Origin: Deltaproteobacteria bacterium
GTDB lineage: Bacteria > Desulfobacterota > GWC2-55-46
Direction of reading: 5' to 3'
DNA: 64,000 nt
Assembly (NCBI GenBank): GCA_016177845.1
Contig: JACOUO010000016.1
Location: 1-64,000, forward strand
The notes below the pieces were generated by a model. It ran no database searches. It was not told the origin of the DNA and worked only from the letters and a program-made list of their open reading frames with translations. The position numbers and the translations under genes were made by a program. Shown here piece by piece: positions 19,031 to 26,525 of this stretch; the stretch's first letter is position 1; the number at the start of each line of letters is the position of its first letter.

Positions 19031-22000
19031 ATGATGATCCAGGATATATTAAGTAACGCAGAAAATACCGCTTCTGTAAAGTTATGCGCCCTCGGCTTCC
19101 CGGATGGCAAGGCGGCGTATAAAAACCTTGTTCTTTTATCATCAGGCCCTTTCAAAGGCTTTCTTGCCAATATTGTAGATTCAGCCCTTTGCTCCCCTTC
19201 CCCTGGCAGCGCGCTCAATAACCTTGAGGTGATATCTCAGAACATACCTTCCGGGCTCATTGATGAGGCGCTTAAAAAGCCTGCCTTCATTGAAAGGCTC
19301 ATTACCGTCTGCGGCTCATCCCTGTTCTTATCCAATATACTGTCAAGGCATCCTGACTGCTTCAAATGGATCTTTATTGAAAACGGGCTTGATGAGGTAA
19401 AAGATACCGATGTCTTCAGGCAAGAGCTTGATGAAAGGACAAAGGGAATAACTGAGTTCGAGCACATGGCAAGGGAGCTTCGCCTTTTCAAGCAGAAAGA
19501 GTTTTTAAGGATAGGCTCACAGGATTTGCTCTCGATTACCCGTGTAGATGAGATTACAAGGGAATTATCCGACCTTGCCTCTGCCTCGCTTGACGCGGCT
19601 GTTGATTTTTCATTCAGGCATTGTAAAGCGCTCTACGGCGCTCCAGTATATATTGATGAAGACGAAGAGACGAAAGAAGCCCGGTTCGTTGTGCTCGGGC
19701 TTGGAAAGCTTGGGGGCAGAGAGCTTAACTTCTCCTCTGACATAGATATCATCTATCTCTATTCATCTGATAAAGGCGAGACAACCGGAATTAATGGTAA
19801 GCCTGATTCAAGGATAAGCCTGCACGCTTTTTTCGTAAAGCTCTCTATGATGGTAAATAAGCTCATCTCCGCTGTTACGGGTGAAGGCTTTGTCTTCAGG
19901 GTCGACCTTGACCTGAGGCCTGAGGGCAGAAGCGGAGACATGGCCAACTCCCTAAGGAGCGCGGAGATATACTACGAATCATGGGGCCAGTCATGGGAGA
20001 GGGCGGCGATGCTTAAGGCCCGCCCTGTAGCCGGAAGCATTAAGCTCGGTGAAGAGTTCCTTGAGATGATAAGGCCGTTCGTGTTCAGAAGGTATCTGGA
20101 CTTTACGGCCATAGAAGAAATCAAATCAATGAAGGAGAAGATCGACTTAAGCCTTCTCAGGAGAAACCCTGACGCCATAGATGTGAAGCTCGGCGCGGGA
20201 GGCATAAGAGAGATTGAGTTCTTCTGTCAGGCGCTCCAGCTCATACACGCGGGAAAAGACAAAGAGATACGGGAACGCACCACCTTGAAGGCCCTTAAAA
20301 AACTTACCGACAAGGGCTATGTAAAACCTCAGGAGCGAGACACCTTGACAAAGGGCTACATATTCCTCAGGAACCTTGAGCACAGAATACAGATAGTGGA
20401 AGGCAGGCAGAGCCAGGTTATACCTGCTGACCCGAAGGCTCTTGAGCGCCTTGCCCGAATGATGGGCTTTAAAGATACGGAAGATAAAAAGGCCGGGGAC
20501 TTTTTCTGGCTTGAATATAAGAAGGTCACAAACTCCGTCCACGAGATATACAGGTCTCTCTTCCACAGGAGTGAAGAGGAAAATGAAGTACCTGAGGATA
20601 TATTAGTCCTCCTTTCTCCTGACATGACAGAAGAAGAGGCAACCGTGCGCCTCATAAAGCTTGGGTTTAAAGATGCTGTGGCAGCTTACAGAAATATCAG
20701 CTTACTGCGCAGCGGCCCGGCTTTCCTCCACCTCTCGGCAAAGGCGCAGGTGATATTGCAAAAACTTGCGCCGAGATTTTTACACAGGGCAGCGGCATCC
20801 CCCGACCCTGACAAGGCGCTTTTCCACCTTGAAAGGTTTATCTCATCAATCGGCGCGCGCACCACATTCTATTCGCTGCTTGCTGAAAACCCGAGGGTGC
20901 TTGATGAGCTTGTAAAGCTCTTCGGCACAAGCCTCTTTTTATCAAGGGATTTAATAGAGCATCCTGAGAGCCTTGATATCCTGCTTTCAAAAGAGCTTTC
21001 CATCCCCTACAAGGCAAAGGCAGAGATATTTGAAGAGTTTTCACGGGAGATAGAGCCAAAAGAGGACTACGAGGAACGGCTTGATACCTTAAGAAGGCTT
21101 AAGAACCAGGAGATATTCAGGATAGGCATAAATGACATTGCCGGAGGGCTTAACTCACATCAGGTCTCAAAGCAGATTACATTTCTTGCAGAGGCAATCC
21201 TTGAGGCTTCGTACAGGATAGCCATTAAGGAGCTGAGCAGGTTCGGCGAGCCTGAAGGGGACGCAAAATTTGCCATACTCGGGCTTGGGAAGCTCGGGGG
21301 CAAGGAGCTTATCTACGGCTCTGACCTTGATATCATCTTTGTATATTCGGACACTGACGGCTCCACCTCAGGGCCAAAGGTAATCTCAAATCAGGAGTAT
21401 TTTGTAAAGCTCGGCCAGAGGATCATCAGCGCGCTGACGCTTCGCACAAAAGAGGGCTACGCGTTCAGCGTTGACGCAAGGCTCAGGCCTTCGGGCAGCG
21501 CAGGCCCGCTTGTGGTATCAAGGGCAGCTTTGATAAAATATCACTCAGGCGACACCCAGATATGGGAGAGGCAGGCAATGATAAAGGCCCGCTCCACAGG
21601 GGGCGACATTGCCTTTGGATGCGATATCGCAAAAGAGCTTGAAGAGATTATCTATTCAAAACCCCTGAAAAAAGGCGATATAGAAGAAATGCTCAGGATA
21701 AGAAGGCGGATGGAGACTGAAATTGCCAAGGAAGACGCATCACGATATAATATCAAGACCGGCAAAGGCGGGCTTGTGGATATCGAGTTCCTTATTCAGG
21801 CCCTGCAGCTCTATTATGGCGGGGAAAAAAAATCCCTTAGGACGCCTTATACGATGAAGGCGCTTAAGAGGCTTGCAGGCGGGCATATCATCACGGAAGA
21901 CGAGCGGCAGTTCCTTAAAAGGGCCTACGCGTTCTACAGGCTCCTTGAGATGAGGCTGCGGATAGTGCATGACAGGCCTGAGGGTTATTTAAACATTGGT

Positions 22001-22150
22001 TCGGAGGAGCTTACAACCCTTGCCAGGCGCGCGGGCTACATGGGCGCTGACGCAAACGAGAAGCTCTTAAACGATTATAAGGAATACTCCGGCGCAGTAC
22101 GGGAAAGTTATCTGAAGATGCTGGAAACGCTTAAGACCGAGGCAAAATGA
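19031..22150 (+). CDS. glnE: Bifunctional glutamine synthetase adenylyltransferase/adenylyl-removing enzyme
   Basis: 1039 aa. Two nucleotidyltransferase domains are visible, each with its G-S-D-x-D type centre: LGKLGGRELNFSSDIDI (about residue 228) and LGKLGGKELIYGSDLDI (about 757). Each is followed by a helical GlnD-PII uridylyltransferase-like domain. The N-terminal half removes AMP from glutamine synthetase by phosphorolysis; the C-terminal half adds it, in response to PII and glutamine. No glnA or glnB is in the window. ATG ATG at 19031 gives two possible starts; no ribosome site precedes either. Confidence 0.96.
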   Translation: MMIQDILSNAENTASVKLCALGFPDGKAAYKNLVLLSSGPFKGFLANIVDSALCSPSPGSALNNLEVISQNIPSGLIDEALKKPAFIERLITVCGSSLFLSNILSRHPDCFKWIFIENGLDEVKDTDVFRQELDERTKGITEFEHMARELRLFKQKEFLRIGSQDLLSITRVDEITRELSDLASASLDAAVDFSFRHCKALYGAPVYIDEDEETKEARFVVLGLGKLGGRELNFSSDIDIIYLYSSDKGETTGINGKPDSRISLHAFFVKLSMMVNKLISAVTGEGFVFRVDLDLRPEGRSGDMANSLRSAEIYYESWGQSWERAAMLKARPVAGSIKLGEEFLEMIRPFVFRRYLDFTAIEEIKSMKEKIDLSLLRRNPDAIDVKLGAGGIREIEFFCQALQLIHAGKDKEIRERTTLKALKKLTDKGYVKPQERDTLTKGYIFLRNLEHRIQIVEGRQSQVIPADPKALERLARMMGFKDTEDKKAGDFFWLEYKKVTNSVHEIYRSLFHRSEEENEVPEDILVLLSPDMTEEEATVRLIKLGFKDAVAAYRNISLLRSGPAFLHLSAKAQVILQKLAPRFLHRAAASPDPDKALFHLERFISSIGARTTFYSLLAENPRVLDELVKLFGTSLFLSRDLIEHPESLDILLSKELSIPYKAKAEIFEEFSREIEPKEDYEERLDTLRRLKNQEIFRIGINDIAGGLNSHQVSKQITFLAEAILEASYRIAIKELSRFGEPEGDAKFAILGLGKLGGKELIYGSDLDIIFVYSDTDGSTSGPKVISNQEYFVKLGQRIISALTLRTKEGYAFSVDARLRPSGSAGPLVVSRAALIKYHSGDTQIWERQAMIKARSTGGDIAFGCDIAKELEEIIYSKPLKKGDIEEMLRIRRRMETEIAKEDASRYNIKTGKGGLVDIEFLIQALQLYYGGEKKSLRTPYTMKALKRLAGGHIITEDERQFLKRAYAFYRLLEMRLRIVHDRPEGYLNIGSEELTTLARRAGYMGADANEKLLNDYKEYSGAVRESYLKMLETLKTEAK

Positions 22151-22201
22151 CACAGACGACATTTAAAGGATGCAGCAAGCCGGTTTCAAAGGAGGGCTTA
22201 G

Positions 22202-24718
22202 TTGAAAGATAAACAAGGAAATCTCTCTAAAATTGGGTTGCCAAAGCTTCTGCATCTTATTTATAAAAAAGCCGACCCAGCCGCTGTTCTCGACATAATA
22301 AGGGAGCCGGTCAAAAAAAGGTTCTATTTCAAGAACGGAATGCCTGTTGCCGCAAGCTCCAATATATTAAACGAGGTGCTTGGCAGGCTCCTGATGCAGG
22401 AGAACATAATCACTCAGGAAGAATACGAAAAATCCCTTGAGATAGTAATAAAAGAAAAGAGGAAACATGGAGAGGTCTTGATCTCCATGGGCCTTATCAA
22501 TAACGAACAGCTCAACTCCTTCCTTACTCTCCAGACAAAAAGAAGGCTCCTTAAGGTATTCGAATGGACGGACGGCACATACAGGTACACAAAAGCTGAT
22601 GCCCTGCCTGACAGCATGACGCAGTTTCCGCTCCATCCTGCCTCTCTGATACTTGAAGGCATAAGCCTCGGCTTCTACCCTGTATCAAAGGTCAAGGATG
22701 AGCTTGGAGAATACCTCGACCAGCAGATTTCAAAATCAACCGAACCCGGCAGGTATAACCTTGACAGCTTCCGCCTTAATCTTCAGGAAAAAAGGTTTTT
22801 CGAATCATTCAACGGCACAAAGACCTTAAGGGAGACACTCGAAGGCTCTGACCTCTTAAGGCACAGGGCTGTTGCCATTTCCCTAAGCTTGATCATTACC
22901 GGTCTTCTTGCAGGCCCGGGCACAAGACCTGAACCTGAATTTGAAGAAGGTGAAAAAGAGGCTCACGCCATTGAGACAGGCGGGCCTTCGAGGCTTAACG
23001 CTGAAATCCTTTTCATGCGCGCCAAAAGCGCTCTTCTCGCTAAAGACTTCAAGTCAGCAATAAAGATACTTAAGGAGATAACCGACCTCAACCCCACAGA
23101 GGGCGAGTACTGGGCTTATCTCGGATGGGCTATCTTTAATGATAACCCTCAGCTTACGAAAGAGGCTGAGAAGATAATCAAGGACTCGATAGACCTGAAT
23201 AACGAGCTTGACAGCGCATGGTATTTCCTCGGGGTAGTCTGCCTCAGCATGGGTAACGCAATGCTTGCGGAGATTTCTTTCCGCAATGCCGCCTTAAAAA
23301 ACCCGTGGAACCTTGAGGCGGTAAGCGAGCTTAAAAGGATCGAACTTAAAAAGTCTCTGCCTGTCGAACAGGAAAAGGGCTACAGGCATTCCTACGGCTT
23401 TACAGATGACCCGTTCCTGAATGTGCCTTCAGCTCGAAAAACCACTCTGATAGAGAGCAGGACGCAGGTTCTTGACGCCATTGCCAAGGCAGTAAAGAAA
23501 AAGAGCGGCCCTATACTCCTTGAAGGCATTCCCGGTGTAGGCAAGACGACAATATGCCTTGAACTGCTCAGAAGGCTTTCAAACGATAAGATGCTTGCCG
23601 CTGTGATACTCAACCCTCAGGAGAGGGAGATACAGCTCATCAAAGCGATAAATACCGAGCTTAACGCATCAACAGACGGCACGACAATAAAAGAACAGCT
23701 CCTTAGCCTTGGCATGCGCGTCTCCCAGAATAAGATACAGGGCGGGCACACTGCAATAATAATAGATAACGCACACCTGCTTTCATCAGGATGCCTTAAG
23801 CTCATACAATATCTCTCAAGGCTTAAAACCCTGCAGATAATACTTATCGGCGACCCTCTGCTTTCCAGCAGGCTAAAAGAGCCGGACTTCACCGAGCTTG
23901 ACGGTAAGATTGCGCTGCGCCTTGAGCTCCATCCCCTTACGCTCGATGAGGTTGGTGAGTATGTCTCGGCAAGGGTGGACAGCGTGCTTCAGGACCCCGG
24001 CAGTTCAATTCTCGCATTCTCTACGGACGCCATCAAAATACTTTTTGAGGAAAGCGGCGGCGTGCCTTCGATAGTCAATGCCAAGGCCGCACAAGTGCTG
24101 GAGAGCGCGGCAGAACTTGAACTGACCACCATAGACGATGTGCTTACTTCAGGCGTACTGAGGGAAAAGGAGACCCCGCCCTCACCTGAACTCTCGGATA
24201 TTTTTGAGATTGAGGAAAAGTCGCCTGAGGAGCCTTACACGGAACAAGAGCCGTTTGTCACAGCGCACGAAGAGGCAAAAGCAGAAGAGATTATTTCTAT
24301 GCCTGAGGAAAAGCCTCAGGAGCAAAAGGCAGAAGCTGCACCTGAGATTACCCATAACGAGCCTGAACCGCCGGCCCCAGCACAGGAAACTCCAGCAGAG
24401 CCTTACAGGAACCTTGAAGAGAGGGTCGAACAGAGCCATCACCCTGTTCAAAAACCACTTGATACAGTCTATACGCAGCTTGAGAAAGAAACCGTTCAGA
24501 AACCCAAAAGCTTTTTAAAGCTCATTATCTGGATACTTGTGATGCTCATAACAGGGCTTGTCATTGGCTCGCTCATAGGTATCTTCTGGATGGGGCCCAA
24601 GAACGCCACGGAAGAACCCCCTGTAATTCAGCCCTCAAGCGAGCACAGCGAGACCGCTGCCCCGATAGACGCATCAACCGCAATAGAAGGCAGCAGCATT
24701 GTGATTGAGAGGAAATAG
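22202..24718 (+). CDS. DUF4388-TPR-ExeA-like AAA ATPase with C-terminal membrane anchor
   Basis: 838 aa. The order is: DUF4388/PATAN-like N-terminus (1-150; KKRFYFKNGMPVAASS), a helical linker, TPR-like repeats (about 267-375), an ExeA/GspA-type AAA domain (about 390-650) with YGFTDDPFLN, Walker A GIPGVGKTT near 441 and Walker B AIIIDNAHLL near 518, a Glu/Pro-rich linker (660-765), one membrane helix (771-798) and a short tail. ExeA proteins couple ATP hydrolysis to envelope assembly, while DUF4388 domains occur in signalling and gliding proteins. The start is TTG at 22202, chosen for AAAGGAGGG 5 nt upstream. The fusion is unusual; the substrate is unknown. Probably cotranscribed with glnE (51-bp gap). 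Confidence 0.75.
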   Translation: MKDKQGNLSKIGLPKLLHLIYKKADPAAVLDIIREPVKKRFYFKNGMPVAASSNILNEVLGRLLMQENIITQEEYEKSLEIVIKEKRKHGEVLISMGLINNEQLNSFLTLQTKRRLLKVFEWTDGTYRYTKADALPDSMTQFPLHPASLILEGISLGFYPVSKVKDELGEYLDQQISKSTEPGRYNLDSFRLNLQEKRFFESFNGTKTLRETLEGSDLLRHRAVAISLSLIITGLLAGPGTRPEPEFEEGEKEAHAIETGGPSRLNAEILFMRAKSALLAKDFKSAIKILKEITDLNPTEGEYWAYLGWAIFNDNPQLTKEAEKIIKDSIDLNNELDSAWYFLGVVCLSMGNAMLAEISFRNAALKNPWNLEAVSELKRIELKKSLPVEQEKGYRHSYGFTDDPFLNVPSARKTTLIESRTQVLDAIAKAVKKKSGPILLEGIPGVGKTTICLELLRRLSNDKMLAAVILNPQEREIQLIKAINTELNASTDGTTIKEQLLSLGMRVSQNKIQGGHTAIIIDNAHLLSSGCLKLIQYLSRLKTLQIILIGDPLLSSRLKEPDFTELDGKIALRLELHPLTLDEVGEYVSARVDSVLQDPGSSILAFSTDAIKILFEESGGVPSIVNAKAAQVLESAAELELTTIDDVLTSGVLREKETPPSPELSDIFEIEEKSPEEPYTEQEPFVTAHEEAKAEEIISMPEEKPQEQKAEAAPEITHNEPEPPAPAQETPAEPYRNLEERVEQSHHPVQKPLDTVYTQLEKETVQKPKSFLKLIIWILVMLITGLVIGSLIGIFWMGPKNATEEPPVIQPSSEHSETAAPIDASTAIEGSSIVIERK

Positions 24719-25120
24719 CTTTTATTGACCTCGCTTTAGGTGATTGCGAGGAGCGTAAGATTATTTGGGTGGGCTAAGCCCTACCTACAACAAACCATTC
24801 TCCCTCCCCTTGTGGGAGAGGGTTGGGGTGAGGAGTGGTAACTTTTCACCCTCCCCTTTATCCGCTCCCATCAAGGGAGGGGAGGCCTTTTATTTTGTAT
24901 TTTGTCTTGTTTTTAAAACACTACACCAAGGGGCATCGCGCAGAGAGCATAATAACAAGATACTGTAGCCCGCTCTCTCCCTCTCCCTGATCAAACCGTC
25001 ATTCCCGAATGTCTCTATCGGGAATCCAGTATTATACCGCTTTCTTTAAATCTTTATATCCGGTGGGCAAAGCCCACCCTACAATACTAACTCAGATTGC
25101 CTCACTCTGTTCCCAAATGA
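24719..25120. repeat. Intergenic mosaic of dispersed repeats
   Basis: Between the AAA ATPase gene and gdh. It includes a fragment of the GATTGCGAGGAGCG family (about 24742), a CCCTCCCC/GGGAGAGGG palindromic stretch (24801-24890), one copy of the 36-bp hairpin repeat (24998-25033) and an inverted GGTGGGC...GCCCACC hairpin (25062-25078). Related pieces recur at 42.2-42.8 and 51.5-52.1 kb. No gene is seen. Confidence 0.8.
24998..25033 (+). repeat. 36-bp hairpin repeat, copy 1
   Basis: Contains ATTCCCGA and its reverse complement TCGGGAAT around a 9-nt loop, followed by CCAGTATT. Five copies occur in the window. Confidence 0.9.
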
Positions 25121-25143
25121 CAAGCTACCTTACATAAAAAATC

Positions 25144-25172
25144 TTGACAAACCCCCTGTTCTGGAATTTAAT
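25144..25172 (+). promoter_or_regulatory. Promoter of glutamate dehydrogenase gene
   Basis: Perfect TTGACA (25144-25149), 17 bp, TTTAAT (25167-25172), leaving a leader of roughly 95 nt before the ATG at 25275. No regulator site was identified. Confidence 0.65.
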
Positions 25173-25274
25173 TAAACGGGTTCAGGCTTGATATTTAAAT
25201 AATCCCTGAATTCAGCTTGCCGATCCTTTTAGATTTTTCCGCCAACCAAAACATGCTTAAAGAGGAGTGATAAC

Positions 25275-26525
25275 ATGTCCTCAAGTCAGACCTTTTTTCA
25301 GGAAATCCTCTCAACACTTGAAATTGCGAACAGGCATCTTAAACTGCCGACCGCAGTATATGAGCGCCTCAGGGTTCCCAGACGCTCTCTTATCGTATCT
25401 GTCCCCGTACAGATGGATGACGGCTCCGTAAACTACTACACGGGCTACAGAGTGCAGTACGACTTTGCGCGCGGGCCCGCAAAGGGCGGCATCAGATACC
25501 ATCCTAAAGTAAACCATGACGAGATAACGGCCCTTGCTGCCCTGATGACATGGAAATGCGGCGTGGTTGATATCCCGTTCGGCGGGGCAAAAGGCGGAGT
25601 AGCCTGCGACCCGACAATTATGAGCAAGGGTGAGATTGAAAGGCTAACAAGGAGATTTACTTACGAACTTGGGCTTATAATCGGGCCTGAGTCTGACATA
25701 CCGGCCCCTGATGTATATACCGATGAACAGGTAATGGCATGGATGATGGACACATATTCCATGATGAAGGGCTATTCCGTGCCGGGTGTTGTTACGGGTA
25801 AACCCATATGCCTTGGCGGCTCTCTTGGAAGAAACAAGGCTACCTCATCAGGCCTTGTCACAACTGTACTTGAGGCACTGAAGCACCTTGGCATGCGCAT
25901 TGACGGGCTTACCGTCACAGTGCTCGGCTTTGGCAAGGTCGGCTTCCATGCCGCCAAGATACTGCAGGACCTTGGCGCAAAGATAATTGGCGTGTCAGAC
26001 TCAAAAGGCGCCATCTATAACCCACAGGGCCTTGATATAGATGCTGTTGCGGCGCATAAGGCAAAGGCAGATACGGTCCAGGGCTTTAAAGATGCCGAAA
26101 ACCTTACCAATGAAGAGCTTCTTACGATAGAAGTCGATGTGCTCATCCCGGCTGCGCTCGAAGGCCAGATAAACTTAACAAATGTTAACAGGATAAAGAC
26201 TAAAATTCTTGCGGAAGGCGCAAATAACCCTGTAACGCTTGAAGCGGATGAGGTATTAAAGGCAAACGGTGTATTTTTACTTCCCGGAATACTTGCCAAT
26301 GCAGGCGGGGTCGTAGTCTCCTATTTTGAATGGGTGCAGGACCTGCAGAGGTTTTTCTGGAATGAGAATGAGATTGACGCCCGCCTTACCACAATAATGA
26401 CAAAGGCCTTTAAAGAGGTTTTGGATATTGCACAGGAAAAGAAGGTGGATATGAGGACAGCGGCAACTGTCCTCGGTGTAAAAAGGGTAGCTGATGCCGT
26501 AATTACAAGAGGGCTTTATCCATAA
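25275..26525 (+). CDS. gdhA: Glutamate dehydrogenase (Glu/Leu/Phe/Val dehydrogenase family)
   Basis: 416 aa, the length of hexameric GDH. The substrate domain carries KGGIRYHP and the catalytic lysine in DIPFGGAKGGVACDP. The Rossmann domain (from about 200) carries LGFGKVGFHAAKIL. It interconverts glutamate and 2-oxoglutarate plus ammonium with NAD(P). With glnE close by, it points to nitrogen assimilation or glutamate catabolism; the direction cannot be told. AGAGGAGTG precedes the ATG by 6 nt. Confidence 0.95.
   Translation: MSSSQTFFQEILSTLEIANRHLKLPTAVYERLRVPRRSLIVSVPVQMDDGSVNYYTGYRVQYDFARGPAKGGIRYHPKVNHDEITALAALMTWKCGVVDIPFGGAKGGVACDPTIMSKGEIERLTRRFTYELGLIIGPESDIPAPDVYTDEQVMAWMMDTYSMMKGYSVPGVVTGKPICLGGSLGRNKATSSGLVTTVLEALKHLGMRIDGLTVTVLGFGKVGFHAAKILQDLGAKIIGVSDSKGAIYNPQGLDIDAVAAHKAKADTVQGFKDAENLTNEELLTIEVDVLIPAALEGQINLTNVNRIKTKILAEGANNPVTLEADEVLKANGVFLLPGILANAGGVVVSYFEWVQDLQRFFWNENEIDARLTTIMTKAFKEVLDIAQEKKVDMRTAATVLGVKRVADAVITRGLYP

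Follow-up and report, generated by a model that had tools for sequence, protein, structure and literature searches.

The stretch of DNA analysed here (the window) comprises 64,000 nucleotides of a Deltaproteobacteria bacterium assembly (GCA_016177845.1, contig JACOUO010000016.1). Our subject is one of its genes, which starts 51 bp behind the end of glnE and encodes, in a single intact open reading frame (ORF) of 838 amino acids with a TTG start codon and AGGAGGG directly 5' of it, a DUF4388/PATAN domain, tetratricopeptide repeats (TPR), an ExeA-like AAA domain, a linker, a transmembrane (TM) segment and a tail (Table 1). This architecture is real, and the order DUF4388-TPR-AAA-TM given in a preliminary description made from the letters alone is borne out by Pfam, structural models and hydropathy. 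The two domains that this description had proposed to look for with hidden Markov models were both found at significant scores above their curated cut-offs: DUF4388 (PF14332) reaches 65.5 bits against 25, and AAA_22 reaches 59 bits against 27 over residues 434-558 (7.8e-16). TIGR03015 from NCBIfam spans the whole AAA region at 1.2e-27; at 97.1 bits it stays far below its curated cut-off of 324.5, and we rejected membership in this XrtA/PEP-CTERM ATPase family. The best Pfam model for the repeats, TPR_2, likewise stays below its curated cut-off (19.2 bits against 27). The repeat block nevertheless appears in the models as seven antiparallel helices, with predicted local distance difference test (pLDDT) values mostly above 80. 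A profile built from 11 relatives also finds solved TPR proteins; its best E value, 3.5e-35, adds up the many repeats in an engineered TPR chain.

AlphaFold2 was run on 11 sequences, the window protein and ten relatives (L033-L042; L, G and f numbers denote loci, genomes and families). The AAA domain was predicted well and in Foldseek resembles MuB, TnsC and Orc/Cdc6, the linker at 657-769 has low confidence, and a helix follows at 770-796. The PATAN part was also modelled with low confidence (mean pLDDT of about 28-53 for residues 1-60), and the best 50 Foldseek rows for the N-terminal model are mostly TPR structures.

Table 1. Features of the locus, in window positions; residue numbers refer to the 838-amino-acid protein
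Feature	Position	Strand	Basis
glnE, conserved upstream neighbour	19031..22150	+	GlnE family match at 19292-20065 and 20903-21619
Ribosome-binding site AGGAGGG	22190..22196	+	read from sequence
Gene for the PATAN(helical insert)-TPR-degenerate AAA-linker-TM protein, 838 aa, TTG start	22202..24718	+	ORF, Pfam
DUF4388/PATAN domain, residues 5-154	22214..22663	+	Pfam 6e-18; same span in genome search
MshEN-like 24+5+24 tandem motif inserted in PATAN, residues 59-111	22376..22534	+	NF053729, MshE profile match, residue counts
Small helix-strand-helix segment after PATAN, residues about 183-236	22748..22909	+	secondary structure of models; conserved columns
TPR superhelix, seven helices, residues 262-385	22985..23356	+	models, Foldseek, profile
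ExeA/TIGR03015-like AAA domain, residues 394-652	23381..24157	+	TIGR03015, AAA_22, model pLDDT mostly 77-90
Walker A GIPGVGKT, intact, residues 442-449	23525..23548	+	alignment
Walker B AIIIDNAH, residues 518-525; Asp522 kept, catalytic Glu replaced by Asn523	23753..23776	+	alignment
Glu/Pro-rich low-confidence linker, residues 657-769	24170..24508	+	models
Transmembrane helix, residues 774-792	24521..24577	+	Kyte-Doolittle
46-residue tail, predicted periplasmic, no domain found	24578..24715	+	Pfam, hydropathy
Glutamate/leucine-type dehydrogenase gene, downstream	25275..26525	+	Pfam ELFV_dehydrog 2.6e-81

PATAN, TPR and AAA are joined in one ORF in 29 other genomes, a recurrence on which we rejected chance or an assembly artefact. 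One of these genes (L057/G003) is truncated in the AAA domain and has Arg for the Walker A Lys, and in a 30th other genome (L059/G027) the gene is split in the assembly. Full-length relatives occur in the same family, order and class; in a phylum sample searched at E up to 1e-40, 10 of 395 genomes match (own included), all from the same class. The ten named relatives are metagenome-assembled genomes, nine of them titled Deltaproteobacteria and mostly groundwater by title.

TM segments were called by a Kyte-Doolittle hydropathy scan, used without a dedicated TM predictor, which finds one at the C-terminus in 27 of the 31 orthologues aligned (window included) and none in the other four. In the window protein, basic residues precede the single helix, as expected if the other domains are cytosolic, and the tether to the inner membrane with cytosolic domains put forward in the preliminary description agrees with this predicted topology. 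That description had also counted about 40 residues behind the helix, where we count 46, and had pointed to a departure from the ExeA layout, which stands: the ATPase is not N-terminal, and a peptidoglycan-binding domain was not found, the tail having no match among the best 25 of 34 Pfam families (E up to 1). Two AAA forms (L061:6834-10115 and L062:2219-5545) are longer, with about 1,100 amino acids and 177-186 residues after the TM segment in which no clear domain is seen; their genomes (G056, G051) have no GlnE match.

Ancestry and gene neighbourhood

In the class, the shorter relatives have the order DUF4388-J-TPR and show neither an AAA match nor, by Kyte-Doolittle, a TM segment. The J domain (DnaJ in Pfam) scored 2.4e-17 to 9.8e-17 in the four scanned; the window protein itself gives no match to a J domain with its HPD motif. 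At E up to 1e-25, 36 of 297 genomes of the phylum hold a J or an AAA form, and 19 of these 36 supply a set of 20 phylum J-form loci. Two phylum forms of 632 amino acids were scanned, and each has a receiver domain at the N-terminus.

A tree of the PATAN-TPR region was built from 48 sequences, without L057, L059 and L074; from the 20 phylum loci it includes 11 (L151-L161). As the outgroup was not monophyletic, a single J form from it served as root. All AAA forms fall into one clade (ultrafast bootstrap, UFBoot, 100), whose sister is the J forms of families f8, f9 and f11 (node UFBoot 100; that J clade 97). The AAA forms are thus of single origin, with J-domain forms as sister, and their PATAN and TPR regions share common ancestry with the DUF4388-J-TPR family. 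One protein, L063, combines PATAN, a degenerate J domain (HPD changed to RPE), TPR, AAA and TM; its J remnant scores 34 bits with a profile from which L063 itself was excluded (E 3.9e-11, 36 sequences searched), and it looks intermediate.

The gene's position next to glnE is conserved as well. glnE lies directly upstream on the same strand in 20 of the 25 fetched AAA-type loci, or 21 of 26 with the window, and overlaps the gene by four bases in five AAA-type loci. The exceptions are L058, L059 with its split gene, L061 and L062, where the gene lies elsewhere in the genome, and L064 at a contig end. Within the class, J forms of f8, f9 and f11 also follow glnE (G049, G057, G440, G439, G437 and G438, with G058 by a contig-end fragment); reading downstream from glnE at 13 further loci did not show the gene next to it. 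Across the phylum, glnE is upstream of the J form in 9 of the 20 loci (L156, L157, L158, L160, L162, L163, L167, L169 and L170, from four other families; in L162 with a gap of about 0.8 kb), ilvE is downstream in 7 and neither is present in 4. Because glnE adjoins both AAA forms and, across the phylum, J forms, the link is old and has survived changes in the other neighbours. Judged from these sequence relationships, the window protein derives, as a form specific to its lineage, from a family of glnE-linked J-domain adaptors. Two apparent fusions, a J protein of 1595 amino acids in L169 and a glnE ORF of 1645 amino acids in L162, were rejected: both reflect long reading frames in DNA rich in GC, and at either locus glnE is separate from the J gene. 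In L058/G006, glnE is followed by a DNA methylase gene (L136:3414-5147) and the AAA-form gene is preceded by an endonuclease-like gene (L058:3-1463), with the contigs ending there; a restriction-modification cassette may have been inserted between the two in this genome.

This linkage is the best argument for the strongest alternative to the reading that we favour below, namely a nitrogen-assimilation adaptor that would work with GlnE, the glutamine synthetase adenylyltransferase, would probably be co-translated with it and would tether or gate GlnE or glutamine synthetase at the membrane. The glutamate/leucine-type dehydrogenase gene, which comes next at 17 of the 25 AAA-type loci that were fetched, at first adds to this picture. 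However, the order glnE-dehydrogenase-dnaA exists without our gene in G002, G039, G040 and G052, as does glnE-dehydrogenase up to the contig end in G030, so that the dehydrogenase neighbour is background and was discounted as a functional clue. Nor does co-occurrence support a dependence on glnE, despite the strong linkage: in a tally made by eye over the 297 phylum genomes, a GlnE match (E up to 1e-20) is absent from 19 of the 36 genomes with a J or AAA form, and its presence in the other 17, compared with 104 of the 261 other genomes, is no more than expected (p 0.47). glnE also shares operons with unrelated genes, as with hldE in E. coli. We consider a nitrogen adaptor unlikely, if still the most serious of the alternatives. 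The gap between our gene and the dehydrogenase, 24719-25274, measures 556 bp, compared with 2-299 bp in the 17 fetched AAA-type loci where the dehydrogenase comes next, and reads as C/T-rich and repeat-like.

Neither exeB nor other secretion genes are next door, the neighbours being glnE and the dehydrogenase. The preliminary description had set glnE against secretion genes as the genomic context; glnE is indeed the neighbour, but the contrast is incomplete, as the closest relative of the ATPase in its own genome sits in a type IV pilus locus.

The AAA domain and the PATAN insert

We aligned the AAA domains of the 31 orthologues with those of 26 ExeA-type paralogues. Of the paralogues, 21 share their genome with an AAA form, and all were chosen among the better-scoring AAA-only matches. 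L074, a distant DUF4388 protein, was dropped from the AAA counts together with the J forms. The Walker A Lys is kept in 30/31 orthologues and the Walker B Asp in 31/31, both being present in 26/26 paralogues. In AAA proteins generally, the Glu behind this Asp is catalytic, and a Gln and an Arg also have a role. The Glu is found in all 26 paralogues but in only nine orthologues, the remaining 22 having Arg, Asn, Gln, Asp, Lys, Gly or His, i.e. seven different residues. The Gln of the paralogues' GQP (26/26) is kept in 2/31 and is Asp in the window, and the Arg at 569, from the paralogues' LRQLNQR (26/26), is Arg in 15/31 and Lys in 12/31 orthologues, the window among the latter. In the 19 genomes that hold both proteins, mean pairwise identity is 39% for the orthologue AAA domain against 66% for the paralogue, which is the more conserved in 171/171 genome pairs; within the orthologues of the same genomes, PATAN has 62%, TPR 51% and AAA the lowest value of the three regions. 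Since Lys and Asp are kept while Glu, Gln and Arg are replaced and divergence is fast, nucleotide binding looks selected and canonical hydrolysis does not, and the residues suggest that the domain would bind ATP without hydrolysing it.

The preliminary description had spoken of a motor. Such a true ATP-driven sensor-motor, in which PATAN/TPR input would drive hydrolysis in a slow inner-membrane AAA machine, could point to the kept Walker residues, to the well predicted fold with its likeness to MuB, TnsC and Orc/Cdc6, and to the nine orthologues with the Glu. The term is not supported for the window protein, which has substitutions at the catalytic Glu and at two more positions that are invariant in the paralogues; together with the scatter of substitutions among the orthologues and their fast divergence, this makes an active motor improbable. 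More improbable still is an evolutionary leftover, in which PATAN-TPR alone would work and the AAA-TM half would be decaying. The four orthologues lacking a TM segment, the truncated L057 and the low conservation of the AAA region would fit such decay; however, the P-loop Lys and the Walker B Asp are unlikely to persist this widely without selection, and the TM segment remains in 27 of 31.

The insert in PATAN resembles the MshEN domain, a tandem 24-residue motif with a 5-residue spacer (PMC5013675). NF053729, the NCBIfam model of the MshE-type motif for cyclic di-GMP (c-di-GMP), matches residues 60-110 at 5e-8 with 32.6 bits, below its cut-off of 38, and a profile made from the N-terminal part finds MshE (5htl) over 54-113 (E 1.4e-6). 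Among 35 sequences counted, comprising AAA forms, J forms and one distant DUF4388 protein, the second half-site is nearly complete (Arg/Lys 32/35, Gly 35/35, Gln 35/35, Leu also nearly throughout), whereas the first has no Arg (0/35) and a single Gln (1/35), so that Arg, Gly and Gln do not occur together in both half-sites. A sensor role, as given in the preliminary description, is possible, with a c-di-GMP-type motif in which the first half-site has lost its Arg and Gln. Makarova and co-workers reportedly described PATAN inserts in 2006 as an 'alpha-clip', in a paper whose title contains 'with an alpha-helical insertion'. PATAN and MshEN co-occur in three papers of the literature searched, and we do not claim the relation of the insert to MshEN as new. 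That the insert would bind c-di-GMP and gate the rest of the protein, as its layout, the second half-site and the MshE match might suggest, is the least probable of the readings, because Arg9 and Gln32 of MshE were identified as c-di-GMP-binding residues (PMC5013675) and a PilF GSPII domain that deviates slightly fails to bind it (PMC12002112), quite apart from the sub-threshold NF053729 score.

A candidate adaptor for a pilus-type machine

The reading that we tentatively favour, and rank ahead of the GlnE-linked nitrogen adaptor, is that of a membrane-docked adaptor which does not hydrolyse ATP and acts on a machine of the pilus type. Its soluble ancestor would have been a DUF4388/PATAN-J-TPR protein encoded just after glnE. 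We infer that in this lineage the DnaK-recruiting J domain decayed and was then lost, and that an ExeA-type AAA domain and a C-terminal TM helix were gained, the AAA domain keeping its nucleotide- and Mg-binding residues and losing those for canonical hydrolysis. With ATP bound, the protein would then serve at the inner membrane as a stable assembly switch or a clamp, and PATAN, with its crippled MshEN-like four-helix insert, and the TPRs would hold a client on the cytosolic face. As client, the cytoplasmic components of a type IV pilus or of a related type IV filament machine would be likeliest, namely a PilB-type motor and its partners.

The pilus is proposed as client because the histories of three modules (PATAN, J-TPR and the ExeA-type paralogue) converge on type IV pili. 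In cyanobacteria, i) PATAN regulators interact with PilB1/PilC (PMC12288463) and ii) the TPR-containing DnaJ3 forms with DnaK1 and GrpE a chaperone system that interacts with PilB and Hfq (PMC9239167). Two PATAN proteins are also among the candidates in a paper on Myxococcus xanthus pilus regulators, where they were not pursued (PMC11580455). In the own genome, iii) the ExeA-type paralogue overlaps a TPR gene within a run of SPOR, secretin, PilO, PilN, PilM, TPR and ExeA-type ATPase genes (L076:738-12668, minus strand), and a receiver-DUF4388 gene (L149:1230-2765, minus strand) lies about 3 kb from that run on the same strand. In the same tally as for GlnE, PilM occurs in 35 of the 36 genomes with a J or AAA form and in 207 of the 261 others (Fisher p 0.006, uncorrected for kinship); since relatedness is uncorrected, this association gives weak support to the pilus reading. 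As an aside, the own genome of 3.0 Mb has 12 T2SSE-family ATPase matches above cut-off, so that it may harbour several machines for type IV filaments or secretion.

A number of observations weigh against the pilus adaptor. No pilus gene is next to this gene, its stable neighbour being glnE, and the J forms that precede ilvE in 7 of 20 loci fit an amino-acid role as well. PilM is common (242/297 genomes), and the J-form genome G143 lacks it. Several AAA-form genomes, among them G011, G014, G020 and G024, show no pilus-type ExeA paralogue among the matches listed, so the gene does not need one. The catalytic Glu persists in nine orthologues, and hydrolysis in AAA proteins can also rely on other residues. 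Within the AAA clade, L063 does not take a basal place (local support 37-69), and the f4 J forms L072 and L073 lie outside the sister group, so that neither the intermediate nor the exact path is proven. PATAN-PilB binding is known from cyanobacteria only; moreover, DnaK1 of Synechocystis failed to bind PilB in the two-hybrid test, although it bound Hfq and DnaJ3, and that chaperone system is reported as not needed for pilus assembly (PMC9239167).

A more specific version, which we regard as rather doubtful, is that in a single lineage an adaptor recruiting a chaperone to the type IV pilus motor was rebuilt, its DnaK-binding J domain being swapped for a dead ExeA-type ATPase plus membrane anchor, with an ATP-locked membrane clamp on the motor replacing Hsp70 cycles; the lock to glnE may then tie pilus activity to nitrogen status. 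If the adaptor reading is true, the locus would record a traceable exchange in which a chaperone-recruiting domain gave way to a non-hydrolysing ATPase while the gene neighbour was kept. The (receiver-)DUF4388-J-TPR proteins form a little-studied family, often encoded beside glnE, that joins in one chain two kinds of modules associated with the pilus motor in cyanobacteria. In the literature searched, DUF4388 is named in one paper, 'PATAN domain' and 'tetratricopeptide' came up together only in the indexed text of PMC11580455, and PATAN and 'alpha-clip' together nowhere.

Comparison with known systems

Beyond the AAA domain and the TM segment, the protein fails the tested defining features of ExeA, and we rejected canonical ExeA/GspA membership on its catalytic residues, the peptidoglycan-binding domain and the secretion neighbours. 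ExeA/GspA of type II secretion shares with it the ExeA-like AAA domain and one TM helix; in the window protein, the AAA domain follows PATAN and TPR, the hydrolysis residues are replaced and the 46-residue tail is without a domain. Closer at hand is the ExeA-type ATPase of the own pilMNO-secretin locus, presumably MshM-like by its position, whose AAA domain is 29-31% identical and which has a TM segment and an overlapping TPR gene; it differs in keeping the catalytic Glu, Gln and Arg, in leaving the TPR to a separate gene and in having no PATAN. The MshEN/GSPII receptor domain has the same tandem 24-residue motif and 5-residue spacer, with the difference that the window's first half-site is without Arg and Gln. 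The cyanobacterial PATAN regulators PixG, PixE and LsiR have the PATAN domain in common with our protein, and DnaJ3 is a TPR-containing J protein (PMC12288463, PMC7690835, PMC9239167); these regulators and DnaK1/DnaJ3 are response regulators or chaperones, and the available portions of these papers mention no AAA fusion or membrane anchor. For the DUF4388-J-TPR and receiver-DUF4388-J-TPR proteins of the same phylum, we found no family name. They differ by their J domain, in some by a receiver, and in the class members examined by having neither an AAA match nor a TM segment, and they share with the window protein PATAN with its helical insert, the TPRs and often the place directly after glnE.

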